From: an uncultured Thiodictyon sp.
GTDB taxonomy: Bacteria > Pseudomonadota > Gammaproteobacteria > Chromatiales > Chromatiaceae
Assembly: GCA_903837595.1 (NCBI GenBank)
Contig: CAILVI010000388.1
Coordinates: forward strand, 1-33,937
Length of the DNA: 33,937 bases
Direction: 5' to 3'
Shown: positions 1,460-25,693 of the stretch, piece by piece
Position numbering within the stretch: the first letter of the stretch is position 1
Layout: every line of letters begins with the position of its first letter
Notes under the pieces: generated by a model
The model's input: only the letters and a program-made list of their open reading frames with translations
What the model was told of the DNA's origin: nothing
Databases searched by the model: none
Translations under genes and position numbers: made by a program

Positions 1460-2166
1460 GCCTGCTCGAGGTCAAGGGCCTGGCGGTCCATTACGGCGGC
1501 ATCCGTGCAGTCAAAGGCATCGACCTGCGAGTCGAGGAAGGCGAGGTGGTGTGTCTGATCGGCGCCAACGGGGCCGGCAAGACCAGCAGCATGCGGGCGC
1601 TGGCCGGCCTGCTACCCGCTGCCGCCGGAACCATCCGCTATGCCGACTGCGAGATCACCGGGCTGCCGGTGCATCTACGCGCCCGGCGCGGAATCGCCAT
1701 GGTCCCGGAGGGCCGCGGGGTCTTCCCGCGCCTGACGGTGGCCGAGAACCTGCGCATGGGGGCCTATTTCCGCACCGATAAGACAGGCATTGCGGACGAT
1801 CTGGAGCGCGTCTACGGGCTCTTCCCGCGCCTGCTGGAGCGCCGCGCCCAGACCGGCGGGACCCTCTCCGGGGGTGAACAGCAGCTGTTGGCCATCGCCC
1901 GTGCACTCATGAGTCGTCCGCGGCTGCTGCTGCTCGACGAACCGAGCATGGGACTGGCCCCACTGGCGGTGCAGAAGATCTTCGAGACCATCCGGCTCAT
2001 CGCCGCCCAGGGCATGACCCTGCTGCTGATCGAGCAGAACGCCCGCCTGGCACTGGAGTCGAGCAGCCGCGGTTATGTCCTGGAGGGGGGGCGCATCGTC
2101 CACCAGGACGACTCGGCCGCGCTGCTGGCCAGCCCCAAGGTCCGCGCGGCCTATCTGGGGGCCTAA
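1456..2166 (+). CDS. livF: LivF, branched-chain amino-acid ABC transporter ATPase
   Basis: The second ATPase of the LivFGHM complex, 236 residues, the usual length. Walker A is GANGAGKT (about residues 35-42), the Q-loop region carries the family signature VPEGRGVFPRLTVAEN, the ABC signature is LSGGEQQLLAIARAL, Walker B is LLLLDEPSMGLAP, and the H-loop variant is IEQNA, as usual in LivF. The start codon overlaps the livG stop as ATGA. No hairpin with a T-run follows; the next 30 bases lead straight into the first copy of the chemosensory-flanking repeat, so livF is the last gene of the operon. Confidence 0.95.
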   Translation: MSLLEVKGLAVHYGGIRAVKGIDLRVEEGEVVCLIGANGAGKTSSMRALAGLLPAAAGTIRYADCEITGLPVHLRARRGIAMVPEGRGVFPRLTVAENLRMGAYFRTDKTGIADDLERVYGLFPRLLERRAQTGGTLSGGEQQLLAIARALMSRPRLLLLDEPSMGLAPLAVQKIFETIRLIAAQGMTLLLIEQNARLALESSSRGYVLEGGRIVHQDDSAALLASPKVRAAYLGA

Positions 2167-2182
2167 GTAACGAGTCAAAAAC

Positions 2183-2338
2183 AAGTTAAACACGATCGTT
2201 GTCGTTGTCGCCATTGTAATCGGAGAAGCGATGCAGTTTGGGGTGCGAGAGAATCCGGGGCGCCACGATAACCTCGATTGCGACAACGAGAACGACAACC
2301 ACAATGGCGCTATTTGTATTCATGGACTTGTTTAACTT
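2183..2338. repeat. Hairpin-forming intergenic repeat, copy 1 (upstream of chemosensory operon)
   Basis: A palindromic element between livF and cheR. Outer arms AAGTTAAACA (2183-2192) and TGTTTAACTT (2329-2338) are perfect inverted repeats. Inner arms built from GTTGTC/GACAAC units (about 2197-2210 and 2280-2299) can pair. The centre, AATCGGAGAAGCGATGCA (2218-2235) and CGAGAGAATCCGGGGCGCC (2246-2264) through to the right arm, recurs almost base for base at 9681-9752. Copy 1 has about 10 extra bases (GTTTGGGGTG) between the two core blocks. It has no convincing coding content and looks like a non-autonomous repeat of the REP/MITE kind. Confidence 0.85.
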
Positions 2339-2412
2339 ATCCCCATTGTCTTTTGTGCGATCTTTGTGCCTTTGTGGTACGGACTGCCGACGTCAGGACT
2401 AAGCACACAGCC

Positions 2413-3771
2413 ATGAAGCACCTGTTTGCTCACATTGCCCGCCACAGCGGCCTGCGCATTCCGGACGGCAGTCGGGAGCGCCTCGAGCAGCACATCCTCA
2501 CCCGGATGCGTGCCCTCCAGTTGCAGCGACCCGAGGACTTTGTGCATTACCTGCAACCCGGCACAGCGGGCCGCAGCGAAGAGCTGCACCTGCTGGCGGC
2601 CGTGTTGACCACGGGCGAGACCTTTTTCATGCGCGACGCGGGGCAAATGCAACTGCTGCGCGACACCCTGTTGCCGGCGCTGCTGGAGAGCCGCTCGCGT
2701 CAACGCAGACTACGGCTGTGGAGCACCGCCTGTTCCACCGGGGAGGAGGCGTATTCGCTGGCCATTCTGCTCCACGAACTGCTGGCCGGGCGCGACGACT
2801 GGCAGATTGACTTGTACGGCACCGACGTGAATCCGCAGGCACTGCGCCGGGCCACCACGGGGGAATATGGACCTTGGGCGTTTCGCGGTTGCGATGAAGC
2901 CTTTCGGCGACGCTACTTTGAACCACGCGGCGACCAATGGCGCTTGCAGACACGTATACGTGGGATGGTCAGGTTCATGCCGGGGGACCTGCTGCTCGAC
3001 ACCTTGCCCGCCCCCAGCCGCGGACTCGCCGAGCTGGACCTGGTTTTGTGTCGTAATCTTTTCATCTATTTGCAGCCAGAGGCCATTGCCACGGTCACGC
3101 ACAAGTTGGCCCACTGCCTGCGCGACGGCGGGATACTGCTGACCGGCCACGGCGAATTGCGCACGCAGGGTTGCGATCTGCTGCACACGCAGATGTACCC
3201 CCAATCGGTGGTCTACCGCAAAGGCCCCCCGGATACGCAGAGCGCGCCTATCCTGGCGCCACCACCATTGAGCCCGGTGGCTGCGCCAGGTTCCGCTATA
3301 GCGGCGAGCGTACCGTCACCGCAGCGCACGGCCAAGCCCTCGACACGCCCCTCCAGGCCGCTACCGCCCACCGCCGAGACTGACCCGCTGCTGGCCGCCT
3401 GGCGGCTGGCCGACGCCGGGTGTTTGCACGAGGCGCTCACCCACTGCCGAGGGCTGCTCACGCAGGACCCGATGCGACCCGAGCCCCATTTTCTGGCCGC
3501 GGTACTGTACATGGAGTTAGGCGACACCAGCACGGCACGCGAAGCGCTGCGCAAGGCGCTGTACCTGGCACCCGACCTGATTGCCGCCCATGTGCAGTTG
3601 GAGCGTCTGCAAGCCGGCGCCGACCAACCGCAGGCCGCACACCGGACGCGCGCCATCGTCGCCAGGCTGCTGGAAGACCTGCCGCCGGATGCGCGCGTGC
3701 CATTCCTTGGCGAGAGCCGCGCCGCGGAACTGGGCGCCCATTGGGCGCGCCTGCATGGTTTGGAACCTTAA
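2413..3771 (+). CDS. cheR: CheR-type chemoreceptor methyltransferase with C-terminal TPR region (WspC/FrzF-like)
   Basis: This 452-residue protein should transfer methyl groups from S-adenosylmethionine to glutamates on the cluster's receptor, setting its adaptation state. Seen in the sequence: an N-terminal CheR helical domain, TTGETFFMRD (about 66-75), the SAM-binding loop STACSTGEEAYSLA (104-117), and CRNLFIYL (213-220). A proline/alanine-rich linker (about 270-322) then leads to a helical TPR-like tail (325-400). CheR with a TPR tail is the architecture of WspC and FrzF rather than of flagellar CheR. The frame extends upstream to 2278, inside the repeat, but ATG 2413 fits the family start. 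It is the first gene of a five-gene operon; the next gene starts 20 bases downstream. Confidence 0.92.
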   Translation: MKHLFAHIARHSGLRIPDGSRERLEQHILTRMRALQLQRPEDFVHYLQPGTAGRSEELHLLAAVLTTGETFFMRDAGQMQLLRDTLLPALLESRSRQRRLRLWSTACSTGEEAYSLAILLHELLAGRDDWQIDLYGTDVNPQALRRATTGEYGPWAFRGCDEAFRRRYFEPRGDQWRLQTRIRGMVRFMPGDLLLDTLPAPSRGLAELDLVLCRNLFIYLQPEAIATVTHKLAHCLRDGGILLTGHGELRTQGCDLLHTQMYPQSVVYRKGPPDTQSAPILAPPPLSPVAAPGSAIAASVPSPQRTAKPSTRPSRPLPPTAETDPLLAAWRLADAGCLHEALTHCRGLLTQDPMRPEPHFLAAVLYMELGDTSTAREALRKALYLAPDLIAAHVQLERLQAGADQPQAAHRTRAIVARLLEDLPPDARVPFLGESRAAELGAHWARLHGLEP

Positions 3772-3791
3772 GCACCCCGCGCCCCACTGCC

Positions 3792-4784
3792 ATGGCCAAC
3801 CATCTGATTTTTGAGTTCAACACCACCCGTTATGCCATCGCGGCGGACGCCGTACGGACCATCTTCTGGCTGCCCGAACTCGCGCCGGTGCAAGACCTGC
3901 CGCCGTATTTTGTCGGCCTGATCAACCTGCACGGGGACGTCATTGCGATCGTCGACTTGGGACAGCGCTTTGGCCACCCCGCCAAGCCGTACCGACTGGA
4001 CCAATCGGTCATCTTGCTGGAACAAGACGGCTACGTGGTCGGCCTGGTCGCCGACGCGGTGCACGATCTGTTGGAGATTGCCCCCGCGGACACCGCTCCT
4101 TACGTGCAGTTGGAGCAGGATGACCCGAGCGGCCCCGCCTCGGTGATTGGCGGCACCCTGAAATGGCAAGACACCGTATTGATTCTGTTGGACTCTATCG
4201 CCTTGCTGCGGCTGGTGATGCAGGCGCCCGACGAGCCGTCGGCGACCACGCAACCCACCGACCGGTTTGCCGAGTTGACCGCGGCCCAGCGCGCGCGACT
4301 GCGGCAACGCACCCAGCAATTGGTCTCAATCGACGCGCCACTGGGCCAGGCCGGTCATGTGTATGCGTTGGTACGCATCGGCAACGGGCACTACGCCATC
4401 GCGCTGGAACATGTCGCTGAGTTCATCCACCTGGATACCTGCATTGCCATTCCCTGTTGCCCGCCCCACATCCTGGGGTGCGTGAACTTGCGCGGAGCCA
4501 TCTTGACCGTGATCGACCTGGCGCCCCAGTTGCAGGGCGCACCGTTGCGCGATTACAAAGATATCGTGGTGCTACGCCTGGACGAACAGCGCCTGGGACT
4601 GGCCGTACATCAAATCATCGACATTCAGACCTTTGAGGCAAACGCCCTCAGCCCATTGACCGGACAAGCTTATGGCCACCCGCAATGCAAGTGGATGCTC
4701 CAGCTTGATGACGGCGTGGCCGGCGTACTGGACGTCGATGCACTACTGCAACAAGGCCTGCTTGAAGTGAACGAGCAGGTTTGA
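3792..4784 (+). CDS. cheW: Tandem CheW-domain coupling protein
   Basis: A 330-residue protein made of two CheW folds in tandem. Domain 1 (about residues 2-140) begins [19 protein letters not shown] and contains [22 protein letters not shown]. Domain 2 (about 180-325) contains [21 protein letters not shown] and [21 protein letters not shown]. Both carry the LINLHG/VNLRG-type strand that contacts receptor and kinase. CheW proteins bridge chemoreceptor tips and CheA; Wsp systems use two separate CheW proteins (WspB and WspD), so this may be their fused equivalent (inference). There are no catalytic residues. The frame is open upstream within cheR, but ATG 3792 gives the usual CheW N-terminus and lies 20 bases after the cheR stop. 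Confidence 0.9.
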
Positions 4785-4815
4785 CCCCACCACCTATTTT
4801 TTTCGAGACCGCCGC

Positions 4816-6267
4816 ATGAAGTCGAAGTTCAAACTCTCTACCCGTATGTTGCTGGGCAACCTGATTCCCTGCGTCGTGTTCAGCGTGGCCGTGGCGGCGG
4901 TGTATCTGGAGAGCGTGGGTCTGCGGACAACCATCCTCGACACCCAACGGGCCGTTGCCATCGTCGAATACGGTATAAACCTGCAACTGCAAGTCGCGCA
5001 GATGCAGCGCATCGCCCGCGGTATCCTGCTCAAGGCCCAGGACGCCCATGTGGAAAGCCACGACAACAGCAAACATCAAGCCGAAGAGCTATTGCTCCAG
5101 CTCAAGCAACTGGTCAGAGACCCGGGCCAGATCGCCACGCTGAACCGCATGACCGACACCATCACGGCCATCGGCGAGCTCACCCGGAGTCAAGTCGAGC
5201 GCGTCAAGGCTGGACAGTTGGCCGACGGTCTAAAGGAATACCAAACCGGCAAGAGCGATGAACTCTACCAGGACTTCAATAGTCTGGCCACTGGGTTTTT
5301 CGCGCGTGAAAAGCAGATCGAGGAACAACTCAAGGCCCGCGGGACAGCCGCGGTGGCGACGGTTATCCAGGTGGCGGGCGGCGGTCTGGTGCTGGCCTTT
5401 GCGCTCTCGATGCTCACCGGCATCTGGTTGGCGCGCCGCACGACCGGCCACCTCAAGGAGCTGATTTCGGTGGTGGCAACATCCACCCACCAGATTGCGG
5501 CCAGCACCGAGCAGCATGAGGGCGCCATGACTGAACAGGCCAGCGCGGTCACCGAAACCACTGCCACCGTGGAAGAGATGGTGGCCACCGCCCGCATCAA
5601 TGCCGAGCAGGCGGAGTTCGCCACCCAGTCGGCCAATAGCGCACAAGTCACGACCCGCGAGGGACTGGAACTGGTGACACACAACGAAAGCGACATGGCC
5701 GCCTTGGAGAATACCATGAAAATGATTGCCCAGAAGATCATTGGCCTGTCGGAACAGGCGGGGCAGATTGGCGAGATTGCGCGGGTGGTGGGCGAATTGG
5801 CGGCCGAGACCAACATGCTGGCACTCAATGCCGCGGTGGAAGCGGCCCGTGCCGGTGAGCAGGGCAAGGGGTTCGCCGTGGTCGCCAGCGAAATCCGCAA
5901 ATTGGCCGACCAGAGCAAGAAGTCGGCGCAACGGGCCAACCAGATCGTGGCCGACATTCAAAAGGCGACCAACGGCATGGTCATGACCGCCGAAGACGGC
6001 AGCAAGACCACCCATGCCGCCGCACAAAGCGCACGCCTGGCCTCGGCGGCCTTTGAGCAGGTCATTCACCTGGCCGATGCCGTCGTCCAGAATGCGCAGC
6101 AGGTGTTGCTCAACAGCAAACAGCAGGCGGTGGCCTTGACTCAAATCGACATTGCGATGAAGAACATCAATAATGGTGCACGCGAAATGTCCACCGGCAC
6201 GGTCCAGATCCGCGATGGCATGACCAAGCTGTCCGCGGTCGCCGGTGAACTCAAAAAGATGCTGTAA
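4816..6267 (+). CDS. Methyl-accepting chemotaxis protein, membrane-bound, no clear HAMP
   Basis: A 483-residue receptor that should control the downstream hybrid kinase. TM1 is at about residues 11-30. A helical periplasmic domain of about 150 residues follows, resembling four-helix-bundle sensor domains, then TM2 (about 180-205) and a long cytoplasmic coiled coil. The signalling tip is unmistakable: [20 protein letters not shown] (327-346) followed by [18 protein letters not shown]. Only about 15 residues separate TM2 from the methylation helices, too short for a standard 50-residue HAMP. Glutamine/glutamate-rich stretches such as [16 protein letters not shown] are candidate methylation segments. 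The ligand is unknown. The start follows cheW by 31 bases, with a weak ribosome-binding site. Confidence 0.93.
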
Positions 6268-6276
6268 GGCTTGCCG

Positions 6277-8472
6277 GTGATAGAAGACCAAGAACTGCGT
6301 GACCTGTTCCGCGCCGAGAGCGCGGAACACCTGCAGCGCATCGAAGCGGGCCTGCTGCAACTGGAGCGCACGCCCGACGACGGCCCTTTGCTGGAAGAGG
6401 TGTTCCGCGAGGCCCATAGCCTCAAGGGCGCGGCCCGCATGTTGGGCCTGCGCGAGGTGCAGAACCTGGCGCACGCCATTGAGAACCTGCTGGGCGATGC
6501 GCGCGCGGGCAAACTGCGCATCAGCGCGGCCCTGGTGCCACCCCAACTGGCGACCTTGGATCAAATACGGCGCCTGGTGGCACACGCATTAGGCGATGAA
6601 CCAGCGCCGCCCCTCCCCGGGGCCGTCGCCGTGGCACCTGCGCCAGATCCGCCGCTGATCGCACCGACGCTGGCCTCACTTCTGGCCGACCGGGTCGCAA
6701 GCGCGGCAGTGCCTATTCCCCTCCCCCAGCCGGCGCCGACCGACCTGTGGAGCGCGGCGACCTCAAGCCCTGCACCGGCCTCGCCACTGCCCGATTTTCG
6801 CATTGACACCCTGCGCATTGAATCCACCAGGCTCGATGCACTGCTGCAACTCGGCGGTGAACTGGTGGTCGGCAAGGGACGCATGGCGCGCTGGCAAACC
6901 GAGCTGGATCAACTGCTGAGCCGCTGCGAATACCACCTCCGGGAACCGCAAAGAGGTGCCCAGGGCCTGGCCGCGGTAACCGCCGAACTGGAGCGTCTGC
7001 GCGGTCACATGGCGGGCGACAGCGCGCGACTCGCAACCGTGGCGGTACAAATCGAAAGCGGTATTCGCGCGCTGCGCCTGCTACCCATGGCCACGCTGCT
7101 TGATCTGTTCCCGCGCATGGTGCATGACCTGAGCACCGAACTCGGTAAACAGTTGACCTACAAGGTAGCCGGTGCGGCCACCGTGGCCGACAAACGCATC
7201 ATTGAGGAATTGAAGGCGCCGCTGATGCACCTGCTGCGCAACGCCATTGACCATGGCATCGAGTCGCCCGGCGAGCGGCGCCAAGCCGGCAAACCCGAGG
7301 CCGGCCTGATCGCGATTGTCGTCACCCAAAGCCCCGACGCGGTGCAGATCACCCTGAGCGACGATGGCCGCGGCCTGGACTTGGACGCCATCCGGGCGCA
7401 GGCGCTCAAGCAGCGGCTGCACACGCCCGAGGAGCTGCAAGACCTAACCGAGGCACAGCTACAAGCGCTGATTTTCCAGCCCGGGTTTTCCACCTCACGC
7501 ATCATCACCGACCTGTCGGGCCGAGGCGTGGGACTGGATGTGGTACGGGACACCGTAGAGCGCTTGCGCGGTTCACTCAAAATCATCTCAAAACCGGGCC
7601 AAGGCCTCACCATTTGCCTGCGACTACCCGTATCGCTCACCGCCACGCAGGCCATGCTGGTGCGCGAATGGGGTCAGACCTATGCCGTGGCATTCGAGGA
7701 CATTGTGTTCGTCACGCGCCTGCGGCCCGCGCAACTGCATACCCTGGAAGGCCGCCAGTGGTTTTACCGGGACCACCAGGCCATCCCCCTCGAGCGACTG
7801 GGGCTGCTGCTAGACCGCGCACCGCCGGCGCTGAAAGAAGACGAATGGTTGCACTGTTTGGTGCTGAAGGTGGACAACGACACCTTTGGGTTGGCGCTCG
7901 ACGAGGTGCTGGAAAGCGAAGACATCGTAGTCAAGCCCACCACCACACCGCTCGTGCGCGTGCGCAACGTCTCCGGCCTGGCGGTGCTCACGACCGGGCT
8001 GGTGTGCCCGGTGCTAAACCCCTACGACCTGCTGCGCAGCATGACCCGCAGCGCACGCAACACCGCCCCGGCGGCCACTGCCGCCGCTGGCGAAGCCGCC
8101 GCCGCGCCGGCCAAGCGCATCTTGCTGGCAGAAGACAGCATCACCACCCGCATGCAGGAGCGCCGCATTCTGGAGGCCGCCGGGTATGAAGTCGTCACCG
8201 CCGTCGACGGGCTGGACGCCTGGAACACGCTGACACTGCACCCGTTCGATGCGGTGGTATCCGACATTCAAATGCCCCGGATGTCGGGACTGGAGTTAGC
8301 CGAAAGGATACGCCGGAATCGGACGTTCGCCGAACTGCCCATCATACTCATCACGGCGCTGGCCAGTGAAGAGGATCGCCGCCGCGGCATGGAGGTCGGG
8401 GCCGACGCCTACATCAGCAAATCAGAGTTCGACCAGAGCCTGCTGCTGGACTGCCTGGCCCGCTTGGCCTGA
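6277..8472 (+). CDS. cheA: Hybrid chemotaxis histidine kinase, CheA plus C-terminal receiver (WspE/FrzE-like)
   Basis: A 731-residue kinase. Order: HPt domain with phospho-accepting His47 in EAHSLKGAARML; an Ala/Pro-rich linker (about 108-172) with no visible P2 CheY-docking domain; a dimerisation helix pair; the ATPase domain with N-box LLRNAIDHGIES, G1 box LSDDGRGLD and G2 box GRGVGLDVVRD; a CheW-like regulatory domain (about 450-590); and a receiver (about 614-731) with phospho-acceptor Asp663 in VVSDIQMP and Lys in YISKS. HPt-kinase-receiver fusion without P2 matches WspE and FrzE. The frame opens at TTG 6271, but GTG 6277 sits at better spacing from the AAGG at 6266-6269 and is preferred. 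It lies 9 bases after the receptor. Confidence 0.93.
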   Translation: MIEDQELRDLFRAESAEHLQRIEAGLLQLERTPDDGPLLEEVFREAHSLKGAARMLGLREVQNLAHAIENLLGDARAGKLRISAALVPPQLATLDQIRRLVAHALGDEPAPPLPGAVAVAPAPDPPLIAPTLASLLADRVASAAVPIPLPQPAPTDLWSAATSSPAPASPLPDFRIDTLRIESTRLDALLQLGGELVVGKGRMARWQTELDQLLSRCEYHLREPQRGAQGLAAVTAELERLRGHMAGDSARLATVAVQIESGIRALRLLPMATLLDLFPRMVHDLSTELGKQLTYKVAGAATVADKRIIEELKAPLMHLLRNAIDHGIESPGERRQAGKPEAGLIAIVVTQSPDAVQITLSDDGRGLDLDAIRAQALKQRLHTPEELQDLTEAQLQALIFQPGFSTSRIITDLSGRGVGLDVVRDTVERLRGSLKIISKPGQGLTICLRLPVSLTATQAMLVREWGQTYAVAFEDIVFVTRLRPAQLHTLEGRQWFYRDHQAIPLERLGLLLDRAPPALKEDEWLHCLVLKVDNDTFGLALDEVLESEDIVVKPTTTPLVRVRNVSGLAVLTTGLVCPVLNPYDLLRSMTRSARNTAPAATAAAGEAAAAPAKRILLAEDSITTRMQERRILEAAGYEVVTAVDGLDAWNTLTLHPFDAVVSDIQMPRMSGLELAERIRRNRTFAELPIILITALASEEDRRRGMEVGADAYISKSEFDQSLLLDCLARLA

Positions 8473-8492
8473 ATGAAAAAGAACCGCCACCC

Positions 8493-9575
8493 ATGACAGA
8501 TGTCCCGGAACAGAGGAGCCAACGCCGCATCCGCCTGCTGCTGGTAGAGGACTCGGCAACCGAATTGTATATGCTCAAGCGCCTGCTGAGCGCGGCGCCG
8601 GACATGGAGGTGGTAGGCACCGCCGCCGACGGGCGCGCCGCACTGACTCTGCTGCCGCAATTGCGGCCTGATCTCGTCATTACCGACTACCACATGCCGG
8701 TGATGGACGGCATGGAGTTCATCCTCAAGGCCATGCAGCAGCATCCCTGCGTGATTCTGGTATTGAGCGTGGCCGTGCAGTCATTCCATAAGGACAACAT
8801 CTTCCGGTTGCTGTCGGCCGGTGCCTTGGACGTGCTGGCCAAGCCGCTGGGCCACGATGGCGGCATCGGAGGCCGCGAGGCGCAAGAGTTGCTGGACAAA
8901 ATTCGCGCCATCGCTCAGGCCCCGAGCATGAGCCGGCGCTTGGCGGTAGCCGCACCAGCCGTCCGGCCGACCCCGGCGGACACCCCAGTCATCCCCTCAC
9001 CACTACGCAAACGCATCGAGCTGATAGCGCTGGGTGCCTCGACCGGCGGCCCGCAGGTATTGAACCGTATTCTGGAGCTGTTGCCCAAGACCTTCCCGGT
9101 GCCGCTCGTGTGTGTGCAGCATATCAGCCAGGGATTTCTGGACGGGATGCTGAGCTGGCTGCAGACTCAAAGCGCCTTGAAGCTGGAGCTGGCCCGGCCG
9201 GGCGAAGTGCCCCGACCCGGCACTGTGTATTTTGCCCCCGAAGGGCGTCACCTACTATTGGATGCCAACCGCCGCTTCAGTGTCGCGTCCTGTACCGCTG
9301 CCGACGTGCATTGCCCGCAAGTGGACCGCTTGCTGACCTCGGTCGCGCGCCACTATGGCGCCGCCGCGCTTGGGGTGTTATTGAGCGGCATGGGGCGCGA
9401 TGGAGCCGTGGGCCTTAAGGCCATGCGCGACGCGGGCGCACCCACCATCGCTCAAGACGCGGCCACCAGCGTCATTTTTGGTATGCCAGCCGTGGCCATC
9501 GAACTCGGCGCAGCCCAATACGTACTGCCCACCGACGAGATTGCCGCGATGCTGAGCCGCTTCGCCAGGCGCTGA
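8493..9575 (+). CDS. cheB: CheB, receiver-regulated receptor methylesterase (WspF-like)
   Basis: A 360-residue methylesterase/deamidase that removes the methyl groups added by the CheR of this operon, and is switched on by phosphotransfer from the kinase. The N-terminal receiver (about 12-125) has phospho-acceptor Asp65 (VITDYHMP) and Lys117. A linker rich in Pro/Ala (about 145-172) leads to the esterase domain with the catalytic set Ser183 (GASTGG), His210 (VQHIS) and Asp303 (GMGRDGA). All key residues are present, so the enzyme should be active. It is the last gene of the operon; the intergenic space after it contains the second copy of the flanking repeat. No stand-alone CheY is present in the cluster. 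Confidence 0.95.
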   Translation: MTDVPEQRSQRRIRLLLVEDSATELYMLKRLLSAAPDMEVVGTAADGRAALTLLPQLRPDLVITDYHMPVMDGMEFILKAMQQHPCVILVLSVAVQSFHKDNIFRLLSAGALDVLAKPLGHDGGIGGREAQELLDKIRAIAQAPSMSRRLAVAAPAVRPTPADTPVIPSPLRKRIELIALGASTGGPQVLNRILELLPKTFPVPLVCVQHISQGFLDGMLSWLQTQSALKLELARPGEVPRPGTVYFAPEGRHLLLDANRRFSVASCTAADVHCPQVDRLLTSVARHYGAAALGVLLSGMGRDGAVGLKAMRDAGAPTIAQDAATSVIFGMPAVAIELGAAQYVLPTDEIAAMLSRFARR

Positions 9576-9664
9576 GGCCGACAGTGCGTCAATCGCACGC
9601 AACGCAGCCTAAGGCGCGGTTCATTGAGTGAGTTAAACAGGTCCGTTAGGGGTTGTTCGCAGCA

Positions 9665-9754
9665 CCGTTGTCGTTGTCGTAATCGGAGAAGCGATGCACG
9701 AGAGAATCCGGGGCGCCACGATAACCTCGATTGCGACAACGACAACGACAACGG
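9665..9754. repeat. Hairpin-forming intergenic repeat, copy 2 (downstream of chemosensory operon)
   Basis: The second copy of the element seen at 2183-2338. The arms CCGTTGTCGTTGTCG (9665-9679) and CGACAACGACAACGG (9740-9754) are a perfect 15-base inverted repeat. The core repeats copy 1 with the same AATCGGAGAAGCGATGCA and CGAGAGAATCCGGGG blocks but lacks about 10 bases between them. AGTTAAACA at 9631-9639 matches the left outer arm of copy 1, but no right outer arm is visible. Short reading frames rich in Asp-Asn or Ser-Leu-Ser through this element are artefacts of the GACAAC units. It lies between the convergent cheB and HD-GYP genes, where it could also act as a transcription stop. Confidence 0.85.
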
Positions 9755-9811
9755 CTCTATTCAGAATCATATCAGGCGTTACACTTCGCGGCTTAACCGA
9801 TCTGCTTGGGA

Positions 9812-11050
9812 TCAAGCCACCTCCGGCGCCCACACGCCCTGGTCATGGATCGCGATAAAGGCATCCACCACGATCGGTTCAAACTTGATGCCGCGGCCCG
9901 CCTCAATCTCGGCAATGGCCACTTCAATACCCAGAGACCGGCGGTAGGGCCGCGAGGTGGACATCGACTCCACGACGTCGGCCACGGCCAGGATCTTCGA
10001 CTGCAACAGGATCTGATCGCCTTTGAGCCCCCCCGGGTAACCAGAGCCGTCCAGCCGCTCATGGTGCTGCAACACAATGTCGGCAATCGGCCAGGGAAAG
10101 TGGATATTCTTCAGAATGTCGTAGCCGGTCTGGGCATGGGTCTTGATGAAATTGAACTCCACCTCATCCAGTCGACTGGGCTTGGTCAGGATTTCGGCCG
10201 GGATGCGAATCTTGCCGACATCATGCACCACGCTGGCTATCTGGAGGCCCTCCAGATCATGCTCTGACAGCTGCAATTCCTTGCCAATCAAGACCGCCAG
10301 CCTGGACACCCGGCGCTGGTGACCGGAGGTGTAGGGGTCACGCATTTCCACCGTCGCGGCTATGGCCGTGACGGACTCGAGCAAGGTATCATGCAGCGCG
10401 TGGAAGTGCGCAGCCTCCTTTTTCAGCAGCATCTCCCGCTCAGCGCTCAATTTGCGTTCGTGCTCGATCAACGCGGCGGACTTCGTCTCCACCTCTTGCT
10501 GGAGTTTGCTGTTCAGCTCGGTGAGCGCATCCTGCGTGGATTGGAGCAGTTTGTTCTGCTCCAAGGCATTGCGATAAATCGACAGCAGCAAGTTCAACAT
10601 TTGCTGCGAGCCGGTGTTGACCTGAAACACCTCCCCGCCCAGTTGGGCCTGGAGCGGCAGCTTGCACTCCGCTGCCACTTGGCTCGGTTGATTCAGCGAG
10701 TCGCTGACCCGGCTGAGCAACAATGCGGGATCGTAGGGTTTAGTGACATAGTTATCGGCACCCGCATTCAACCCCCGCACCACATCTTGCACGTCGCTCA
10801 TGGCGGTCAGCAAAATCACCGGTAATGTGCGCAAGGCCGCATCAGCGCGAATGTGCCGACACAACTCAAAGCCATCCATCACCGGCATAGTGATATCGCT
10901 GATCAGCAGGTCGGGCCGCGCGGCTTGTGCCATGCGCAAACCCTCGGCGCCGTCGCGCGCCACGCGCACCGCGTACCCGGCATCGGCCAGCAGGCGCCTC
11001 AGCATTTCGGCCTGGATGCTGCTGTCTTCGACGATCAGAATGTGTGCCAT
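9812..11050 (-). CDS. Response regulator with HD-GYP domain (cyclic-di-GMP phosphodiesterase)
   Basis: A 412-residue regulator. The receiver (about 1-120) has the acidic pair in VEDS, phospho-acceptor Asp52 (LISDITMP) and Lys104 (TKPYD). A long helical, probably coiled-coil segment (about 145-215) joins it to the HD-GYP domain (about 220-400). That domain has EMRDPYTSGHQRRVSRLA, the metal-binding HD pair His276-Asp277 in HDVGKI, HHERLDGSGYPGG (329-341) and ADVVESMSTSRPYR. The family hydrolyses cyclic-di-GMP to pGpG or GMP. The N-terminal boundary is the ATG giving MAHILIVEDS; the frame runs on upstream without homology. It is convergent with cheB and is a plausible output protein for the neighbouring kinase, since Wsp clusters end with a receiver-GGDEF protein at this place. 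Confidence 0.92.
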   Translation of the reverse strand: MAHILIVEDSSIQAEMLRRLLADAGYAVRVARDGAEGLRMAQAARPDLLISDITMPVMDGFELCRHIRADAALRTLPVILLTAMSDVQDVVRGLNAGADNYVTKPYDPALLLSRVSDSLNQPSQVAAECKLPLQAQLGGEVFQVNTGSQQMLNLLLSIYRNALEQNKLLQSTQDALTELNSKLQQEVETKSAALIEHERKLSAEREMLLKKEAAHFHALHDTLLESVTAIAATVEMRDPYTSGHQRRVSRLAVLIGKELQLSEHDLEGLQIASVVHDVGKIRIPAEILTKPSRLDEVEFNFIKTHAQTGYDILKNIHFPWPIADIVLQHHERLDGSGYPGGLKGDQILLQSKILAVADVVESMSTSRPYRRSLGIEVAIAEIEAGRGIKFEPIVVDAFIAIHDQGVWAPEVA

Positions 11051-11440
11051 CGGTTGATACGTGCTGCTTTCTGGAATGGTGCCGAAGCGCAATGGCAATA
11101 CGTCACATGATGGAAGTTCCTTGGCAAACACCGCCTGCGCTCGCGCAATTCTACAACAGGCGCAGGTTCGGGTTCGCAAATGCCTGTAAAATAGTGGAAA
11201 CACTCACCCGGCGGCGCCCTCCTGCGGAGCGCGCCCGGGCCGTCGCCACCCCGGGTAGGCGGGCGTTCGGAGCCGCCACCCGACGCGGCGGACTTTACCG
11301 CCCCCGGGTCCAGGGCTTATGCTCCGCGTCCCGCCGCGGCACGCGACGCCGGGAAAACCGCCGAACCGCGTGAACCCCGTCGGACGGCCATGCACCCTGC
11401 ACCCAGTGGCCCTTGTCAGCCGCAACTTTAAGGCTTTTTG
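11051..11440. other. Divergent intergenic region between HD-GYP gene and yciB
   Basis: About 390 bases separating two divergent genes, so both promoters should lie here. The part nearest the HD-GYP gene is moderately AT-rich and holds a TAAAAT (11187-11192) facing yciB and, on the other strand, a TAGAAT-like hexamer near 11150; neither has a convincing -35 box. The stretch 11210-11370 is extremely GC-rich with several small dyads, such as CCCGGG/CCCGGG around 11236-11256, and no gene-like reading frame. AAGG at 11430-11433 serves as the yciB ribosome-binding site. Confidence 0.5.
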
Positions 11441-12115
11441 ATGAAAATCCTGTTCGACCTGCTCCCGATCGTCCTCTTTTTCATCGCCTACAAGGTGGCG
11501 GGCATCTACTGGGCCACCGGGGTGGCGATCACCGCTGCGGCACTCCAGTTCGCCTGGGTCTGGTGGCACCAGCACCGGGTGGACACGCTGCTGCTCGCGA
11601 CCCTGGGTTTGATCGTCGTCTTCGGCGGCTTGACGATTTTCCTGCACAACCCGATCTTCGTCATGTGGAAGCCGAGCCTGGTCAACTGGCTGTTCGCCGG
11701 CGCCTTCCTGGGCAGCCAGTGGATCGGCGAGCGCCCCCTGGTCCAACGCATGATGGGCCAGGCGGTGACGGTTCCGGCCGCCATCTGGCGCCGCCTCAAC
11801 CTGTCCTGGGCACTGTTCTTTTTCGCCCTGGGCCTGGTCAACCTCGTGGTGGTCTATTGGGCGACCGGCTTCTACCAGGCCCACCAGGCCTTGCTCCTGG
11901 CGAGCACCAAGGACACCATTGATCTGGCCAAGTGCGCCGACGAGTTCTCCGGGAATCTGCTGGCACTGTGCAACGATGCCCACACCCGCGAAGGCTACTG
12001 GGTCAACTTCAAACTGTTCGGCATGATGGGGCTGACCGTGCTGTTCGTGATCGCCCAGGCGGTCTATCTGGGACGCCACATCAAGGACGAACCCCAGACC
12101 GCGGATGCCGTCTGA
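11441..12115 (+). CDS. yciB: YciB/IspZ family inner-membrane protein (septation protein A) with an extra loop
   Basis: A 224-residue polytopic membrane protein of the YciB family, which affects envelope synthesis and septation through contacts with divisome and elongasome proteins in E. coli. Recognisable stretches are [18 protein letters not shown] at the N-terminus, [20 protein letters not shown], the [10 protein letters not shown] loop, and [20 protein letters not shown] at the end. It is clearly longer than the roughly 180 residues typical of the family. The surplus is about 35 residues between the last two membrane segments (about 147-182), containing two cysteines in [15 protein letters not shown] ribosome-binding AAGG lies 7 bases before the ATG. 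yciI starts just after its stop, as in many proteobacteria. Confidence 0.92.
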
Positions 12116-14862: not shown

Positions 14863-15390
14863 CTACTCGCTCGCCCAAGCAGATACTCCCAGCAGATACT
14901 CATAGACGACCAGATCCGCCGCCGAGAAGCAGCAAAAGACCACCTCTTGAATCCCCGGGTACCGCAGCACACCGTCCTGGACGGTCGCGACGGCGATCCG
15001 GGCGGCGGCGGCAATGGGATAGCGATAGATGCCGGTACTGATGCTCGGGAAGGCCAGGGAGCCCAGCGCGGCGGCCGCGGCAACCTCCAGGCAGCGGCGG
15101 TAACAGGCGGCGAGCAGTTCCGGCTCGCCCGCGGCTCCGCCCTGCCAGACTGGCCCGACGGTATGGATGACATGGCGCGCGGGCAGCCGGTAGCCGCGCG
15201 TGAGTTTCGCGTCCCCGATCGCACACCCCCCCAGCGCGCGACACTCAGTGAGCAACGCCGGCCCGGCGGCGCGATGGATGGCCCCATCCACCCCCCCGCC
15301 ACCGAGCAGCGACCCATTGGCCGCATTGACGATGGCATCGACCGCGAGGGTGGTGAGGTCGGCTTGAATGGCGCGAAGCGTCGCTGGCAT
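14863..15390 (-). CDS. Macrodomain protein (O-acetyl-ADP-ribose deacetylase-like, YmdB type)
   Basis: A 175-residue single macrodomain, the length of E. coli YmdB. Motifs are [27 protein letters not shown] (about 17-43, the ADP-ribose-binding loop with catalytic Asn/Asp), [14 protein letters not shown], and the second binding loop [12 protein letters not shown] (114-125). The family hydrolyses O-acetyl-ADP-ribose and mono-ADP-ribosyl groups on proteins or nucleic acids. The frame is open far upstream, opposite lpdA, but homology begins at the ATG at 15390. It is divergent from lpdA across 171 bases and ends close to the tRNA terminator. No ADP-ribosyltransferase partner is visible nearby. Confidence 0.93.
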
Positions 15391-15561
15391 GGTCTGGAAA
15401 CCGGGTCGAAGGTCAGTCAGCGCAAAATATACCAGAGGCCTGCGGCGGCGGCGGGCCTCAACGCGCCCCCCGTCCGACGCCCCATCGGTTAGGATTGGCG
15501 CAGTTCCCGCGGCCGCCGCGCACGGACCCTCGATCACTCCTTTGAGCCAAGCAGAGCAATC

Positions 15562-17022
15562 ATGAGCGAACCCATCCCAGCAGCAACCCCCGGCCAAACC
15601 CCGGCCCAGGGCCAGGACATCAGCACCGAGATTGCGATCATCGGCGGCGGACCAGGCGGCTACACGGCGGCGTTCCGCGCCGCCGACCTGGGTAAGCGCG
15701 TGGTCCTGATCGAGCGCTACGGCGCCTTGGGCGGGGTCTGTCTCAACGTCGGCTGCATCCCCTCCAAGGCCCTGCTGCACACCGCCGCCATCATCGAAGA
15801 GGCCAAGGCGCTGGGCGCGATGGGCGTGACCTTCGCGCCGCCGCAGATCGATCTGGACCAGATGCGCGCCGGCAAGCAGAAGGTGGTCGAGCGCCTCACC
15901 GGGGGGCTGGCCGCGCTGGCCAAGCAGCGCAAGGTACAGATCGTGACCGGCAGTGCGCGCTTCGAGGGTCAGCGCCGCCTGAGCGTGGAGACCCGCGAAG
16001 GCCGGATCGCCGTCAACTTCAACCAATGCATCATCGCCTGCGGGTCGAGCCCGGTGCGCATCCCGGGCTTCCCCCACGAGGACCCGCGGTTGATGGACTC
16101 CACCGGCGCCTTGGAGATCAGGGACATCCCGGGGCGTCTGCTGATCGTCGGCGGCGGCATCATCGGGCTGGAGATGGCGAGCGTCTACGCCGCCCTGGGC
16201 TCACGCATCGACGTGGTGGAACTACAGGACCAACTCATCCCCGGCTGCGACCTGGACCTGGTGCGGGTGCTGGAGAAGGCGATCAAGCCGCGCTACGAAC
16301 GCATCCTGCTTCAAACCAAGGTGGCACGCATGGACGCGAGCGCCGATGGCATCAAGGTCGTCTTCGAGGGCAAGCACCCGGGGGAGGCCACCTACGACAA
16401 GGTGCTGGTCGCGGTGGGCCGCCGACCCAACGGCAAGCTGATCAATGCCGAGGCGGCCGGGGTCACCGTGGACGCCCAGGGCTTCATCCCGGTGGACGCG
16501 CACCTGCGCACCAACGTACCCAACATCTACGCGATCGGCGACGTGGTGGGCAACCCCATGCTCGCCCACAAGGCGACCCATGAGGCCAAGACGGCGGCCG
16601 AGGTCATCGCCGGCCTGCCGGCCCTCTTCGACCCGCTCACCATCCCCTCGGTGGCCTATACCGACCCGGAGATCGCCTGGATGGGACTCACTGAGACCGA
16701 GGCCAAGAAGCAGGGGATCGCTTACGAGAAGGGCGTCTTCCCTTGGGCCGCGAGCGGTCGGGCACTTGGCATCCACCGGGAGGAAGGGCTGACCAAACTC
16801 CTGTTCGACCCGGAAACCCACCGCATCCTGGGCGCCGGCATCGTTGGCGTGAACGCCGGTGAACTGATTGGCGAGACCGTCCTGGCCTTGGAGATGGGCG
16901 CGGACATGGAAGACATCGGGTTGACCATCCACCCCCATCCGACGCTAAACGAGACCATCGGCATGGCCGCGGAGATGGCCCACGGCTCCATCACGGACCT
17001 GCTGCCGCCGAAGAAGAGGTAG
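15562..17022 (+). CDS. lpdA: Dihydrolipoyl dehydrogenase (E3)
   Basis: A 486-residue flavoenzyme that reoxidises dihydrolipoamide of pyruvate/2-oxoglutarate dehydrogenase or glycine cleavage complexes with NAD+. FAD-binding IIGGGPGGY is at about 26-34, the redox disulfide is [13 protein letters not shown] with Cys60 and Cys65, the NAD-binding fold has [17 protein letters not shown], and the second FAD motif is [18 protein letters not shown]. The C-terminal HPHPTLNE (457-464) supplies the catalytic His/Glu pair. It is E. coli-type, without a fused lipoyl domain; the first 20 residues are a low-complexity Pro/Gln/Ala leader. No aceE, aceF or sucB lies in the window, so which complex it serves is open. 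Confidence 0.96.
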
Positions 17023-23898: not shown

Positions 23899-24663
23899 TT
23901 AAAACGCCATCTTCGTTTCCCGCAGCGTGATCTCCAACAGGGCATGACGCCGTCGGGCGTCGGCAATCAGCGAATCCGTATCATCCTGGCTGATGGCAAA
24001 GAAGGTCTCGATAGTGTCGCGGATTTGCATCCCTTCCTGCACCAGCTCCTTGGGCATCAACTGCTCGAACTGGTCACGATACTTTCCCGTCAATAGATCA
24101 TCGATCGAGGCCCCTTGCAGCAACTGTCCATTGCCGTTGATCCAGCCCATTTCGAGCAATTGGGTAATAAAAGACGGCACCTGCTTGATTCCCGTAAGGG
24201 CCTTGATACCCTCGGCAATCTTGGCGGTAAACCGGCGACTTAGTTCCTTGGCGATCAGCTTGATAATCAATTTATCGAGGTCATCCTTCAATTCGCGATA
24301 CTGCGTTAAACTATTCCCCCCCTGCTGCGCCCGCTCCAACACTTCGCTAGGCACAATATGAATTGAAATCTCCATGACATTCTGCCCGCCGTCACAGACC
24401 TTAAATTGTATATCCATACTCAAACTCTCCATCTGACTGATCAGCTTGCGCCGCTCATGTGGAGAACTATTCGCCGTCAGCCGCTCACCATGCCGCTCCA
24501 TGTCCATAATCGTCTTGACCAGGCTGGAGCCCATTTTCGGGAAGAAGAGATTAGCAAAGCGATAAAGGGCGAGTAGCTTTTCCGTGGACACATTGTCCGC
24601 ATCAAGATAAATTGGTGAAAAAAGGATCGGGTCGGCGCTCAACAACGATGCTTTACGAAGCAT
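23899..24663 (-). CDS. Unrecognised 254-residue cytoplasmic protein in response-regulator operon
   Basis: I do not recognise this protein. It has no signal peptide or membrane segment. It begins with a mixed segment (LLALYRFANLFFPKMGSSLV), then a charged region ERHGERLTANSSPHERRKLI, and a strand-like stretch with alternating hydrophobics (SLSMDIQFKVCDGGQNVMEISIHIV, 81-104, paraphrased here by position). A helical Lys/Leu-rich part (about 120-160) and a Gln/Glu/Asp-rich helical C-terminus follow. It contains one cysteine, at about 90. The ribosome-binding site GAGG sits at good spacing before ATG 24663, and the upstream gene ends only 11 bases away. Base composition is less GC-rich than in hypF downstream. 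It probably works with its two upstream neighbours, possibly as their effector or scaffold (inference). Confidence 0.8.
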   Translation of the reverse strand: MLRKASLLSADPILFSPIYLDADNVSTEKLLALYRFANLFFPKMGSSLVKTIMDMERHGERLTANSSPHERRKLISQMESLSMDIQFKVCDGGQNVMEISIHIVPSEVLERAQQGGNSLTQYRELKDDLDKLIIKLIAKELSRRFTAKIAEGIKALTGIKQVPSFITQLLEMGWINGNGQLLQGASIDDLLTGKYRDQFEQLMPKELVQEGMQIRDTIETFFAISQDDTDSLIADARRRHALLEITLRETKMAF

Positions 24664-24674
24664 ATTTTCACGCC

Positions 24675-25298
24675 TCAGGCGTTATAAATGGTTCCGATAC
24701 TGCGGAATGGCAAGCGGTAAATGACATAAGAAACTGCGAAGTCGTTTTCTAGCATCTTATCCAGACGGTGCATCACCCCCATAAACACCAGCGGCAGCTC
24801 GCCCGGCTGCAGCGTACTGCCGATGCGATTCAAGATAAATTGATCGCGTAACGCCAGCAACCCGCGGCTCCTGCTCTGGTATTCCGCATTGCTCGCCGCT
24901 TGGTCAGCGCCCACATTATTCATCAGTAACTTATTGAGGAGATCATACTCCTGTATCAGTAAATCCATATCTTCCGTACCCTCGAGGATCGCCCCGCTCT
25001 CGATCAACTTGCAGATAAATGATAAATCCGGGCTACCACTTTCCGCCAGCCGTCTGGCTAATACGACTTCATTACTGCACACCGGCATCCCGTCATGATA
25101 AATGCGCGTATGCTCCCAGGAAATATTCAACTCTCCGATTTTTGCAGCAATCCCCTTCCACATCTCTTCAACTGCCGACACTCCCTTAGCAACTTGCCCT
25201 CTTCTTATCTTCTTGTTGCTCAAGATCGAATCTGTGCGCCCGGCGTCTTCCTGGGCATGCAGAATCGGAACATAGATCAGCCTTCTGTTTTCTTTCAT
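24675..25298 (-). CDS. Unrecognised 207-residue cytoplasmic protein in response-regulator operon
   Basis: I do not recognise this protein with confidence. It is soluble, with no signal peptide or membrane helix. Visible landmarks are RLIYVPILHAQEDAG near the N-terminus, WEHTRIYHDGMPVC (61-74), GSPDLSFICKLIESGA (88-103), a helical middle, and a C-terminal block GELPLVFMGVMHRLDKMLEN (166-185) followed by YVIYRLPFR. The FMGVMHRLD stretch, a strand ending in Met/His followed by a helix, resembles a nucleotide- or metal-site strand-loop-helix, but this is only an impression. The start follows the response-regulator stop by 17 bases with a GAAAGAG ribosome-binding site. The gene is less GC-rich than the window average, as is its downstream partner. 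Confidence 0.8.
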   Translation of the reverse strand: MKENRRLIYVPILHAQEDAGRTDSILSNKKIRRGQVAKGVSAVEEMWKGIAAKIGELNISWEHTRIYHDGMPVCSNEVVLARRLAESGSPDLSFICKLIESGAILEGTEDMDLLIQEYDLLNKLLMNNVGADQAASNAEYQSRSRGLLALRDQFILNRIGSTLQPGELPLVFMGVMHRLDKMLENDFAVSYVIYRLPFRSIGTIYNA

Positions 25299-25315: not shown

Positions 25316-25693
25316 TTAAGGCATGAGCGCCTTGCCGATCACCTCTACCAAATCTGAATTTTCAAAAGGCTTACTCAAGTACTCACTGACATCCAGATCG
25401 GCCGCCTCCCTGATGGTATCGGGGCAGCCATACCCGGTCAGGATGACCATCACCACCCGCCCATCGTATTCGCGGATATTGCGCAAAGTCTCAATGCCAT
25501 CCATTTCCGGCATGCGCAAGTCCAGCAGAATCAGATCCGGGTCCTGTCGCTCATTGACCAGAATGCCGTCAGCACCATTGGAGGCAATGAAGACCTGATA
25601 ACCCTCGCGTTGCAGGACGTGCCGTATCAATGCCAGCAAATCCGGGTCATCCTCAATGATGAGTATCTTGCGATTCGTCAACTCTGCGCTCAT
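25316..25693 (-). CDS. Single-domain response regulator
   Basis: A 125-residue CheY-like receiver with no output domain. It has the acidic pair in LIIEDDPD (Asp15-Asp16), phospho-acceptor Asp58 in LILLDLRMP, Thr86 in ILTGYG and Lys108 in LSKPF, so it should be phosphorylated and switch. With no DNA-binding or enzymatic domain, it must act through a protein partner. The two unrecognised proteins encoded directly downstream (17- and 11-base gaps) are the obvious candidates. No histidine kinase lies next to it. The start at 25693 is taken from receiver homology (MSAELTNRKILIIEDD); the frame runs on upstream to 25765 without similarity. Confidence 0.92.
   Translation of the reverse strand: MSAELTNRKILIIEDDPDLLALIRHVLQREGYQVFIASNGADGILVNERQDPDLILLDLRMPEMDGIETLRNIREYDGRVVMVILTGYGCPDTIREAADLDVSEYLSKPFENSDLVEVIGKALMP

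Follow-up and report, generated by a model that had tools for sequence, protein, structure and literature searches.

Which output does a chemosensory array serve when the regulator gene beside it encodes an enzyme that would destroy, rather than make, cyclic-di-GMP? Chemosensory arrays usually steer movement or make the biofilm signal cyclic-di-GMP, and the best-studied array that acts on this messenger by phosphorylating a regulator of its own is Wsp with WspR, which produces it. The question arises from a 33,937-nt stretch (hereafter the window; positions 1 to 33,937 of contig CAILVI010000388.1, uncultured Thiodictyon sp.), where a cluster of chemosensory genes adjoins a gene for a receiver-HD-GYP protein. 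We favour, at a probability of roughly 0.68, the interpretation that this is a complete non-Wsp array with the receiver-HD-GYP protein as its dedicated output, such that the kinase-on state would lower cyclic-di-GMP.

Gene content of the cluster

The genes run in the order CheR, CheW-CheW fusion, receptor, CheA and CheB, followed by the HD-GYP gene (Table 1), and open reading frames and Pfam agree with an earlier, sequence-only reading on the place and domains of all six. The CheW units of that reading are real as domains but belong to one polypeptide rather than to separate proteins, an architecture common to most untruncated loci of the same CheA clade among the matches listed. TPR matches in CheR-TPR (E 1e-5 to 1e-4) fall slightly below the Pfam gathering scores, and HAMP was not matched by Pfam in the chemoreceptor. 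CheA carries Hpt His49 and receiver Asp665 and, as had been noted, gives no Pfam match to P2, having only a Pro/Ala-rich linker in its place; a class-specific CheA model was absent among the NCBIfam and Pfam matches listed. The array, with its receptor, tandem CheW, CheA-receiver and adaptation by CheR-TPR and CheB, is probably non-flagellar, and the presence of CheR-TPR with a multidomain response regulator in one cluster fits the ACF class.

Because it is encoded on the minus strand and converges on cheB, from which 236 bp separate it, the HD-GYP gene is outside the che operon; its description as the adjacent regulator thus holds for its position beside cheB and not for the operon. No receiver output besides the HD-GYP regulator adjoins the window's cluster, and CheA was the sole histidine kinase that Pfam recognized in a scan of 26 ORFs of the window. 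The window does contain a lone receiver protein, so the statement that there is no CheY needs qualifying, although this protein is distant from the HD-GYP gene. A promoter and terminator scan of 2000-11500 gave counts not above shuffle expectation.

Table 1 Features of the chemosensory cluster and of the wider window.
Feature	Position	Strand	Basis or remark
CheR methyltransferase with short C-terminal TPR	2413..3771	+	Pfam CheR, 1.1e-40
Tandem CheW-CheW coupling protein, single 330 aa polypeptide	about 3792..4784	+	Two Pfam CheW stretches
Membrane chemoreceptor, CHASE3-like periplasmic domain	4816..6267	+	Pfam MCPsignal, CHASE3
CheA kinase with C-terminal receiver, TTG start	6271..8472	+	Pfam Hpt, H-kinase_dim, HATPase_c, CheW, Response_reg
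CheB methylesterase with receiver	8493..9575	+	Pfam
Receiver-linker-HD-GYP response regulator, predicted cyclic-di-GMP phosphodiesterase (P0006)	9812..11050	-	Pfam and alignments
Receiver+linker module of the HD-GYP regulator	10430..11050	-	Shared with receiver-HK and receiver-GGDEF proteins after CheB elsewhere
Lone receiver protein	25316-25765	-	Some 14 kb away from the HD-GYP gene

A CheA lineage separate from Wsp

The component list is identical to that of Wsp, and the cluster had been called Wsp-like; as a statement of kinship this does not stand, since CheA clade, gene order and CheW architecture all differ. In a CheA tree of 37 hand-picked rows, P. aeruginosa WspE not among them, 15 tandem-CheW rows and 10 Wsp-order rows formed separate clades (SH-aLRT 99 and 100), with the window's CheA outside the WspE-type clade, and joining the four CheAs of the window's group to the Wsp-order rows was rejected under the model used (AU test, p-AU 2e-6). 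The label Wsp-order refers to gene order, which is full in six of the ten rows (L056, L064, L116, L120, L121 and L143); two others (L110 and L112) are without CheW matches and two (L130 and L135) are truncated where their contigs end. The synteny by which Wsp is recognized in passages of PMC8552884, a conserved wspA-wspF with two separate CheW genes, was not found in the window, and the linked regulator is a receiver-HD-GYP protein rather than a receiver-GGDEF protein (WspR) or WspH. According to the same passages, the Wsp output domain is exchangeable, being GGDEF in WspR and a histidine kinase in Burkholderia WspH, so an exchange of WspR for an HD-GYP regulator within a Wsp system would have a precedent (PMC8552884); with CheA placed elsewhere in the tree, the gene order different and CheW fused, we regard such an origin of the window's cluster as very improbable. 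Kinship with Wsp was accordingly rejected on tree, AU test and gene order.

Relatives were collected by scanning genome contigs, the best 80 of 587 forming the taxonomic list. The lineage is sporadic, because only the window was found in a class-level sample of 369 genomes (E<=1e-125, three candidates scored per genome).

Linkage of the HD-GYP gene and the receiver-linker module

Conserved adjacency in related genomes, which the sequence-only reading had proposed as a check, was found in three of the four genomes whose CheA is at least 60% identical (the window's own, G000, included), in two orientations, and fails in the fourth. The entire arrangement recurs in a congener (G001, locus L045), convergent HD-GYP gene included; in G177 the receiver-HD-GYP ORF lies on the same strand, starts 15 bp past CheB and has an HK-REC gene next in line, abutting its stop codon. 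The fourth genome, G148 (CheA 60% identical), has no recognized output gene, HD-GYP included, beside its cluster; its receiver-linker module, encoded on a different contig, is joined to GGDEF-EAL with intact EAL motifs and a GADEF-type GGDEF. In G023 the module belongs to a receiver-HK encoded after CheB. G000 also has a second paralogue of the receiver-linker-HD-GYP type (63%), with HDVGN in place of HDVGK, on a 9-kb contig from which che genes are absent. Besides the linked HD-GYP genes, 20 stretches of 8-17 kb that bear other HD-GYP genes were retrieved from G000, G001 and G177, leaving out C20 and C46 of G177, and profiles found che or receptor genes in none of these 20; each of the ten other REC-HD-GYP loci retrieved from G000 is accompanied, within its stretch, by a histidine-kinase gene. 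The ten neighbourhood profiles were derived from the loci themselves, few sequences going into the one for HD-GYP, and included none for EAL; a neighbour with EAL alone would therefore escape notice except where Pfam was run on it. The arrangement is more than chance, as it recurs in G001 and che genes are missing from the 20 other HD-GYP stretches, and the link of the HD-GYP gene to the array is well supported. Plasmid spread of this gene was considered and rejected: five records matched only about residues 200-409, at less than 60% identity.

The receiver+linker of P0006 matches the post-CheB REC-HK proteins of Sulfuricella (L069, 6e-84), Magnetominusculus (L073, 2e-70) and the delta locus L071 (1e-50). 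In a 398-genome phylum sample, CheB was immediately upstream of or fused to the module at 22 of the 28 loci examined, which were drawn from 53 places outside G000 and come from 23 genomes, of which a single family accounts for 10; none of the 28 had an HD-GYP output. Within the family of the window's genome the module (E<=1e-35) was detected in 5 of 210 genomes, all five among the six that hold this CheA (E<=1e-130), and in 0 of the remaining 204, at thresholds picked after viewing the scores (14 and 5 candidates scored per genome for module and CheA); G055 has the CheA, with no module found at threshold. The receiver+linker tree unites five proteins (100/99) as sister to the Sulfuricella protein (95/97), with G177 basal, as it is among the four CheAs. 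The sister of the G148 module is the unlinked paralogue of G000 (97/87), and the G148 module may be an orthologue of that gene rather than of the linked one. Distances of CheA and module correlate (r=0.76 over 25 loci, a value that none of 2000 permutations reached; one module per locus, at L142 not the CheB-adjacent one, and the G000 paralogue left out), a correlation that common descent, instead of contact, may explain. The window's regulator shares the module and adjoins cheB, on the opposite strand, and since the module is mostly CheB-adjacent elsewhere and co-occurs with this CheA, a CheB-linked output slot is here filled by an HD-GYP domain.

An alternative interpretation is that the HD-GYP gene is a bystander with an unlinked kinase of its own and that the array signals otherwise. 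Its convergent orientation and own transcription unit, its absence beside the G148 cluster and the che-free contig of the paralogue are consistent with this, but we consider it unlikely because the linkage survives a change of orientation, the module mostly adjoins CheB, and within the family the module was confined to genomes with this CheA at the thresholds used. It is equally improbable, in our view, that a REC-GGDEF or REC-HK protein encoded elsewhere serves as the main output, which would leave the HD-GYP protein as a phosphate sink or as one output among several. Such multiplicity is seen at L071, which links REC-GGDEF, REC-HK and REC-HD-GYP among the matches listed, at L069, which links REC-HK plus GGDEF-bearing receiver proteins, and in the HK-REC gene of G177; moreover, homologues (38-43%) of the L068 REC-GGDEF occur in all four genomes searched (G000, G001, G177 and G148). 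However, the best of these, inspected one per genome in 8-13 kb stretches, were not near che genes: they lie beside hybrid-kinase genes in G000 (where, of three matches, only C375, covering the receiver, was inspected) and G001, inside a hybrid kinase-GGDEF protein in G177, and near a contig end without a recognized neighbour in G148; nor does another receiver output adjoin the window's cluster. A constant receiver-GGDEF partner, which by the earlier reading would have told against an HD-GYP output, was rejected on these four homologues, as none is linked in these genomes; the objection applies in part, in that related systems link a receiver-GGDEF (Gallionellales L068) or a receiver-HK (Sulfuricella L069, G023) and no HD-GYP gene adjoins the G148 cluster.

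A third possibility, to which we give slightly less weight, is that the HD-GYP domain hydrolyses 3'3'-cGAMP or mainly binds its ligand, so that the array does not set cyclic-di-GMP. The best PDB sequence match of the regulator is a cGAMP-specific phosphodiesterase 3 (5z7c), and in alignment Tyr240 replaces a Glu of 4mcw that we take to mark trinuclear sites. Against this, the remaining positions that we take to be metal ligands are kept, and the top NCBIfam match is to NosR, a family of receiver cyclic-di-GMP phosphodiesterases, albeit below its cut-off (196 against 400 bits). The HD pair (276-277) and the GYP motif are intact, as previously reported, with GYP at 337-339, and so are HH 329-330 and receiver Asp52 and Lys104; H244, H276, D277, H305, H329, H330, D358 and GYP are invariant across seven aligned proteins, and the metal and catalytic positions align with those of solved HD-GYP chains. 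The regulator's proposed role as output is upheld, probably as a dedicated one, by its linkage in related genomes and the mostly CheB-adjacent module.

Predicted signalling and comparison with known systems

From the observed gene content, conserved linkage, module homology, tree congruence and conservation of catalytic and phospho-acceptor residues, a signalling path can be proposed. The receptor would set CheA autophosphorylation at His49, and CheA would have three phosphate acceptors, namely CheB, the receiver of CheA itself and the HD-GYP regulator at Asp52. Phosphorylation of the regulator would relieve inhibition by its receiver via the linker and raise phosphodiesterase activity. With cyclic-di-GMP as the presumed substrate, kinase activity most likely lowers cyclic-di-GMP, a prediction from sequence. 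We caution that the original wording, that stimulus lowers the messenger, was overstated, because a stimulus may turn the kinase on or off; only the statement about kinase activity follows, and any direction of response to stimulus would be conjectural. The regulator may have originated by joining the receiver-linker of the CheB-linked slot, which a histidine kinase occupies in most relatives, to an HD-GYP domain, an order of exchange that we infer.

A broader interpretation is offered tentatively, as we think it somewhat less probable than not: in one non-Wsp lineage the CheA-cognate receiver-linker would be a plug-in socket for output domains, filled in the window's sub-lineage by two kinds of cyclic-di-GMP-destroying domains (linked HD-GYP in three genomes; the unlinked EAL protein of G148), and the array would be a dedicated cyclic-di-GMP-lowering device in a push-pull pair with a second array of the same genome, linked to an intact-GGEEF protein. 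If the main interpretation is true, coupling an array to a messenger-destroying regulator would let bacteria control dispersal or motility adaptively and with tuned gain, and the shared module would offer a handle, as output-domain swaps behind one receiver should rewire the array.

RpfC/RpfG and other two-component systems likewise place a receiver-HD-GYP enzyme under a kinase, but the RpfC/RpfG kinase is an ordinary hybrid kinase, not an array with CheW and adaptation enzymes. Among conserved-domain entries, cd00077 is presumably the HD domain. Passages of a survey of CheR-TPR clusters (Munoz-Martinez 2012, PMC3447774) list receivers fused to GGDEF, EAL, HK and 'metal-dependent phosphatase cd00077', and these ACF-class clusters resemble the window's in combining CheR-TPR with multidomain response regulators; the term HD-GYP is absent from the main text, section 9 calling the phosphatase class protein phosphatases, and, unlike here, module and lineage are not traced in those passages. 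Novelty is therefore moderate, receiver-phosphatase fusions in CheR-TPR clusters having been tabulated in 2012 (PMC3447774), although no description of a receiver-HD-GYP output of a tandem-CheW array was found in the portions of the open-licence literature searched. As described in passages of PMC3861689, CheA-Pch of Pseudomonas aeruginosa is similar in that a chemotaxis kinase lowers cyclic-di-GMP via a phosphodiesterase, but it belongs to flagellar chemotaxis machinery, and Pch, with GAF, PAS, degenerate GGDEF and EAL, is without a receiver; its authors thought direct phosphorylation by CheA unlikely. The window's array is like Wsp in uniting CheR-TPR, CheW, CheA-receiver and CheB with a multidomain receiver output, and unlike it in gene order, tandem CheW, CheA clade and an HD-GYP output of opposite predicted sign.

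Gene cluster and CheA lineage

The window is one whole contig (G000:C388) of a 7.8-Mb genome and carries five plus-strand che and receptor genes spaced 3–31 bp apart, with a receiver-HD-GYP gene lying tail to tail with cheB across 236 bp. Coordinates and motifs given for this cluster by the sequence-only reading were correct; its CheW units are present but fused in one protein, which it missed, and the HD-GYP regulator that it called adjacent is so, although outside the che operon on the minus strand, a point that it did not stress. The window CheA matched Hpt (AHSLKG, His49), H-kinase_dim, HATPase_c, CheW and receiver domains, and the domain search returned no match for P2.

Chemosensory genes and adjoining regulator in the window
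Feature	Position	Strand
CheR-TPR	2413-3771	+
Protein of two CheW domains (tandem CheW-CheW)	about 3792-4784	+
Chemoreceptor, CHASE3 match	4816-6267	+
CheA with C-terminal receiver	6271-8472	+
CheB	8493-9575	+
Receiver-HD-GYP	9812-11050	-

Upstream of cheR, three ORFs (31-2166) appear to resemble a branched-chain amino acid ABC transporter (permease and two ATPases). A lone receiver protein (25316-25765, minus strand) adjoins ORFs 24675-25298 and 23899-24663 (minus strand), neither with a match in Pfam or NCBIfam; G+C is 0.52 in its 2-kb bin and far higher (0.61-0.70) in the other contig bins. ORF 17224-18084 matches an Mrr-type restriction endonuclease, and ORF 14863-16077, which has a macro-domain match and ~230 extra N-terminal residues, overlaps another ORF and may have a later true start.

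Relatives came from a scan of named genomes, and neighbourhoods of the best 80 of 587, annotated with home-made profiles, included clusters in the Wsp order of receptor, CheW, CheR, CheW, CheA, CheB and receiver-GGDEF (for example Herminiimonas L116, Schauerella L143 and Methylococcaceae L120) as well as clusters that run CheR, CheW-CheW, receptor, CheA-receiver, CheB. This second order is that of the window, its congener G001, the related family genomes G177 and G148, Sulfuricella (L069), a deltaproteobacterium (L071), Magnetominusculus (L073) and many cyanobacteria; a Gallionellales locus (L068) adds an inserted receiver-GGDEF gene. The CheA of the window fell inside a 32-row clade (SH-aLRT 100) of a tree with 99 rows, and complete loci of this clade mostly have the second order, a few cyanobacterial loci being exceptions (L070 and L087 rearranged, L082 without che neighbours). 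A 37-row tree of rows picked by hand, adding G148 and G055, kept tandem-CheW and Wsp-order groups apart (support 99 and 100), and forcing the window’s four CheAs together with ten Wsp-order rows (full order in six, no CheW matches in two, two cut by contig ends) was 52 log-likelihood units worse (p-AU 2e-6). Because CheA clade and gene order both differ, we reject Wsp membership and find the earlier term ‘Wsp-like’, read as kinship, unsupported.

The receiver-HD-GYP regulator as probable output

Linkage, module homology, co-occurrence and tree congruence together indicate that the HD-GYP regulator is probably the output of the array. Four genomes, counting that of the window, have a CheA at 60% identity or more; the adjacency expected of related genomes was found in three of them and failed in G148. 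The gene is convergent with cheB in G001, as in the window (85% identity), and in G177 (72%) the two genes share a strand, the regulator’s ORF begins 15 bp past cheB and an HK-REC gene touches its stop codon; thus, linkage outlasted a change of orientation. By contrast, where G000, G001 and G177 have their other HD-GYP genes (13, 6 and 1 surrounding stretches, respectively), home-made profiles recognised no che or receptor gene in any of the 20 stretches. A histidine-kinase gene was present at 10/10 receiver-HD-GYP loci among the G000 stretches, and no histidine kinase other than CheA matched among 26 scanned window ORFs. In cyanobacterial clade loci L072, L074, L075, L076, L077, L101 and L128, a lone receiver gene convergent with cheB sits where the window has its HD-GYP gene, facing the same way.

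In L069, L073 and L071, the gene directly following cheB encodes a receiver-HK protein whose N-terminal part is matched by the regulator’s receiver-linker module (residues 1-215; E 6e-84 to 1e-50). A 398-genome phylum sample gave 53 module places outside G000, of which 28 were examined; CheB was immediately upstream or fused in 22 of these 28, with outputs of HK (25), GGDEF (2), none recognised (1) and no HD-GYP, these loci not being independent since they come from 23 genomes, 10 of one family. Among 210 family genomes, the module occurred in five, all within the six carrying this CheA (module E<=1e-35, CheA E<=1e-130, set post hoc; 14 and 5 candidates scored per genome), its output being HD-GYP in G000, G001 and G177, HK after CheB in G023 and GGDEF-EAL in G148.

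In a receiver-linker tree, the window, G001, G177, a G000 paralogue and G148 grouped (100/99) with a Sulfuricella receiver-HK as sister (95/97); G177 was basal, as it was among the four CheAs of the 37-row tree. Gallionellales and Sulfuricella were closest to the window’s group in the 99-row CheA tree, a grouping that the 37-row tree did not recover. CheA and module distances correlated (r=0.76, 25 loci; 0/2000 permutations reached that value), which shows co-inheritance, not contact. The paralogue (G000:C82:4866-6101, L046) is 63% identical, has HDVGN instead of HDVGK, lies on a 9-kb contig with no che genes recognised, and may differ in activity.

Predicted sign and outputs in relatives

The regulator’s receiver has Asp52 and Lys104; H244, H276, D277, H305, H329, H330 and D358 are invariant across seven aligned proteins, and, going by sequence, the closest solved relative is a 3'3'-cGAMP phosphodiesterase (5z7c). 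Most likely, phosphorylated CheA would phosphorylate Asp52 and the linker would pass activation on to the HD-GYP domain. A Desulfovibrio study of receiver-HD-GYP enzymes reports that isolated domains are more active than the full-length proteins, and cites a Pseudomonas enzyme whose active site is gated by the receiver (PMC4114195). The active kinase thus most likely lowers cyclic-di-GMP via a predicted phosphodiesterase, a claim that concerns kinase state, not stimulus.

This sign does not hold for the whole lineage, in which outputs are mixed: within 9 kb of CheA, HD-GYP and GGDEF genes each occur in 4/33 clade loci (window left out, many incomplete). Different outputs occur in the closest named relatives: receiver-GGDEF in L068, between CheR and CheW-CheW on a contig that stops after CheA, and receiver-HK after CheB in L069. 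One gene run of L071 has receiver-GGDEF, receiver-HK and a receiver-HD-GYP without the shared linker; G023 has receiver-HK after CheB and a PAS-HD-GYP gene upstream of CheR. G055 has the CheA and lacks the module at the threshold used. No output gene was recognised beside the G148 cluster (CheA 60%); its receiver-GGDEF-EAL protein lies on another contig (L186:8273-10204) among REC-HK, HK and CheB-CheR fusion genes, and, since its module pairs with that of the G000 paralogue (97/87), itself unlinked, orthology with the linked gene is doubtful. Since it has GADEF at the GGDEF motif and an EAL stretch aligning full-length with solved GGDEF-EAL proteins, this predicted phosphodiesterase too may destroy cyclic-di-GMP.

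G000 also has an array on C507 (L048), from another CheA clade, with a linked receiver protein bearing an intact GGEEF motif; thus, arrays of opposite sign may coexist in one cell. This type occurs in five genomes of the genus (L048, L053, L054, L059 and L060; motif checked in L048 and L060), in the order receptor, CheB, CheR (not called in L059), CheA-receiver, receiver, (Hpt)-REC-REC-GGDEF, CheW.

Comparison with known systems

As far as searches of open-licence literature show, the delimited tandem-CheW lineage, the receiver-linker socket and its occupation by an HD-GYP domain in one sub-lineage are new. We take cd00077 to be the HD domain. Receivers fused to this ‘metal-dependent phosphatase’ were counted among CheR-TPR clusters in a 2012 survey, by whose criterion the window system, having CheR-TPR and a multidomain response regulator, fits the ACF class (PMC3447774). 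The decrease in cyclic-di-GMP predicted here resembles that driven by a chemotaxis kinase in the known CheA-Pch system of P. aeruginosa, for which the authors doubted direct phosphorylation (PMC3861689). Wsp, recognised in print by synteny, is reported only from beta- and gammaproteobacteria, with output exchange already known inside it (WspR/WspH; PMC8552884); it has separate CheW genes and the receptor first, whereas the window array has a CheW-CheW fusion and CheR first.
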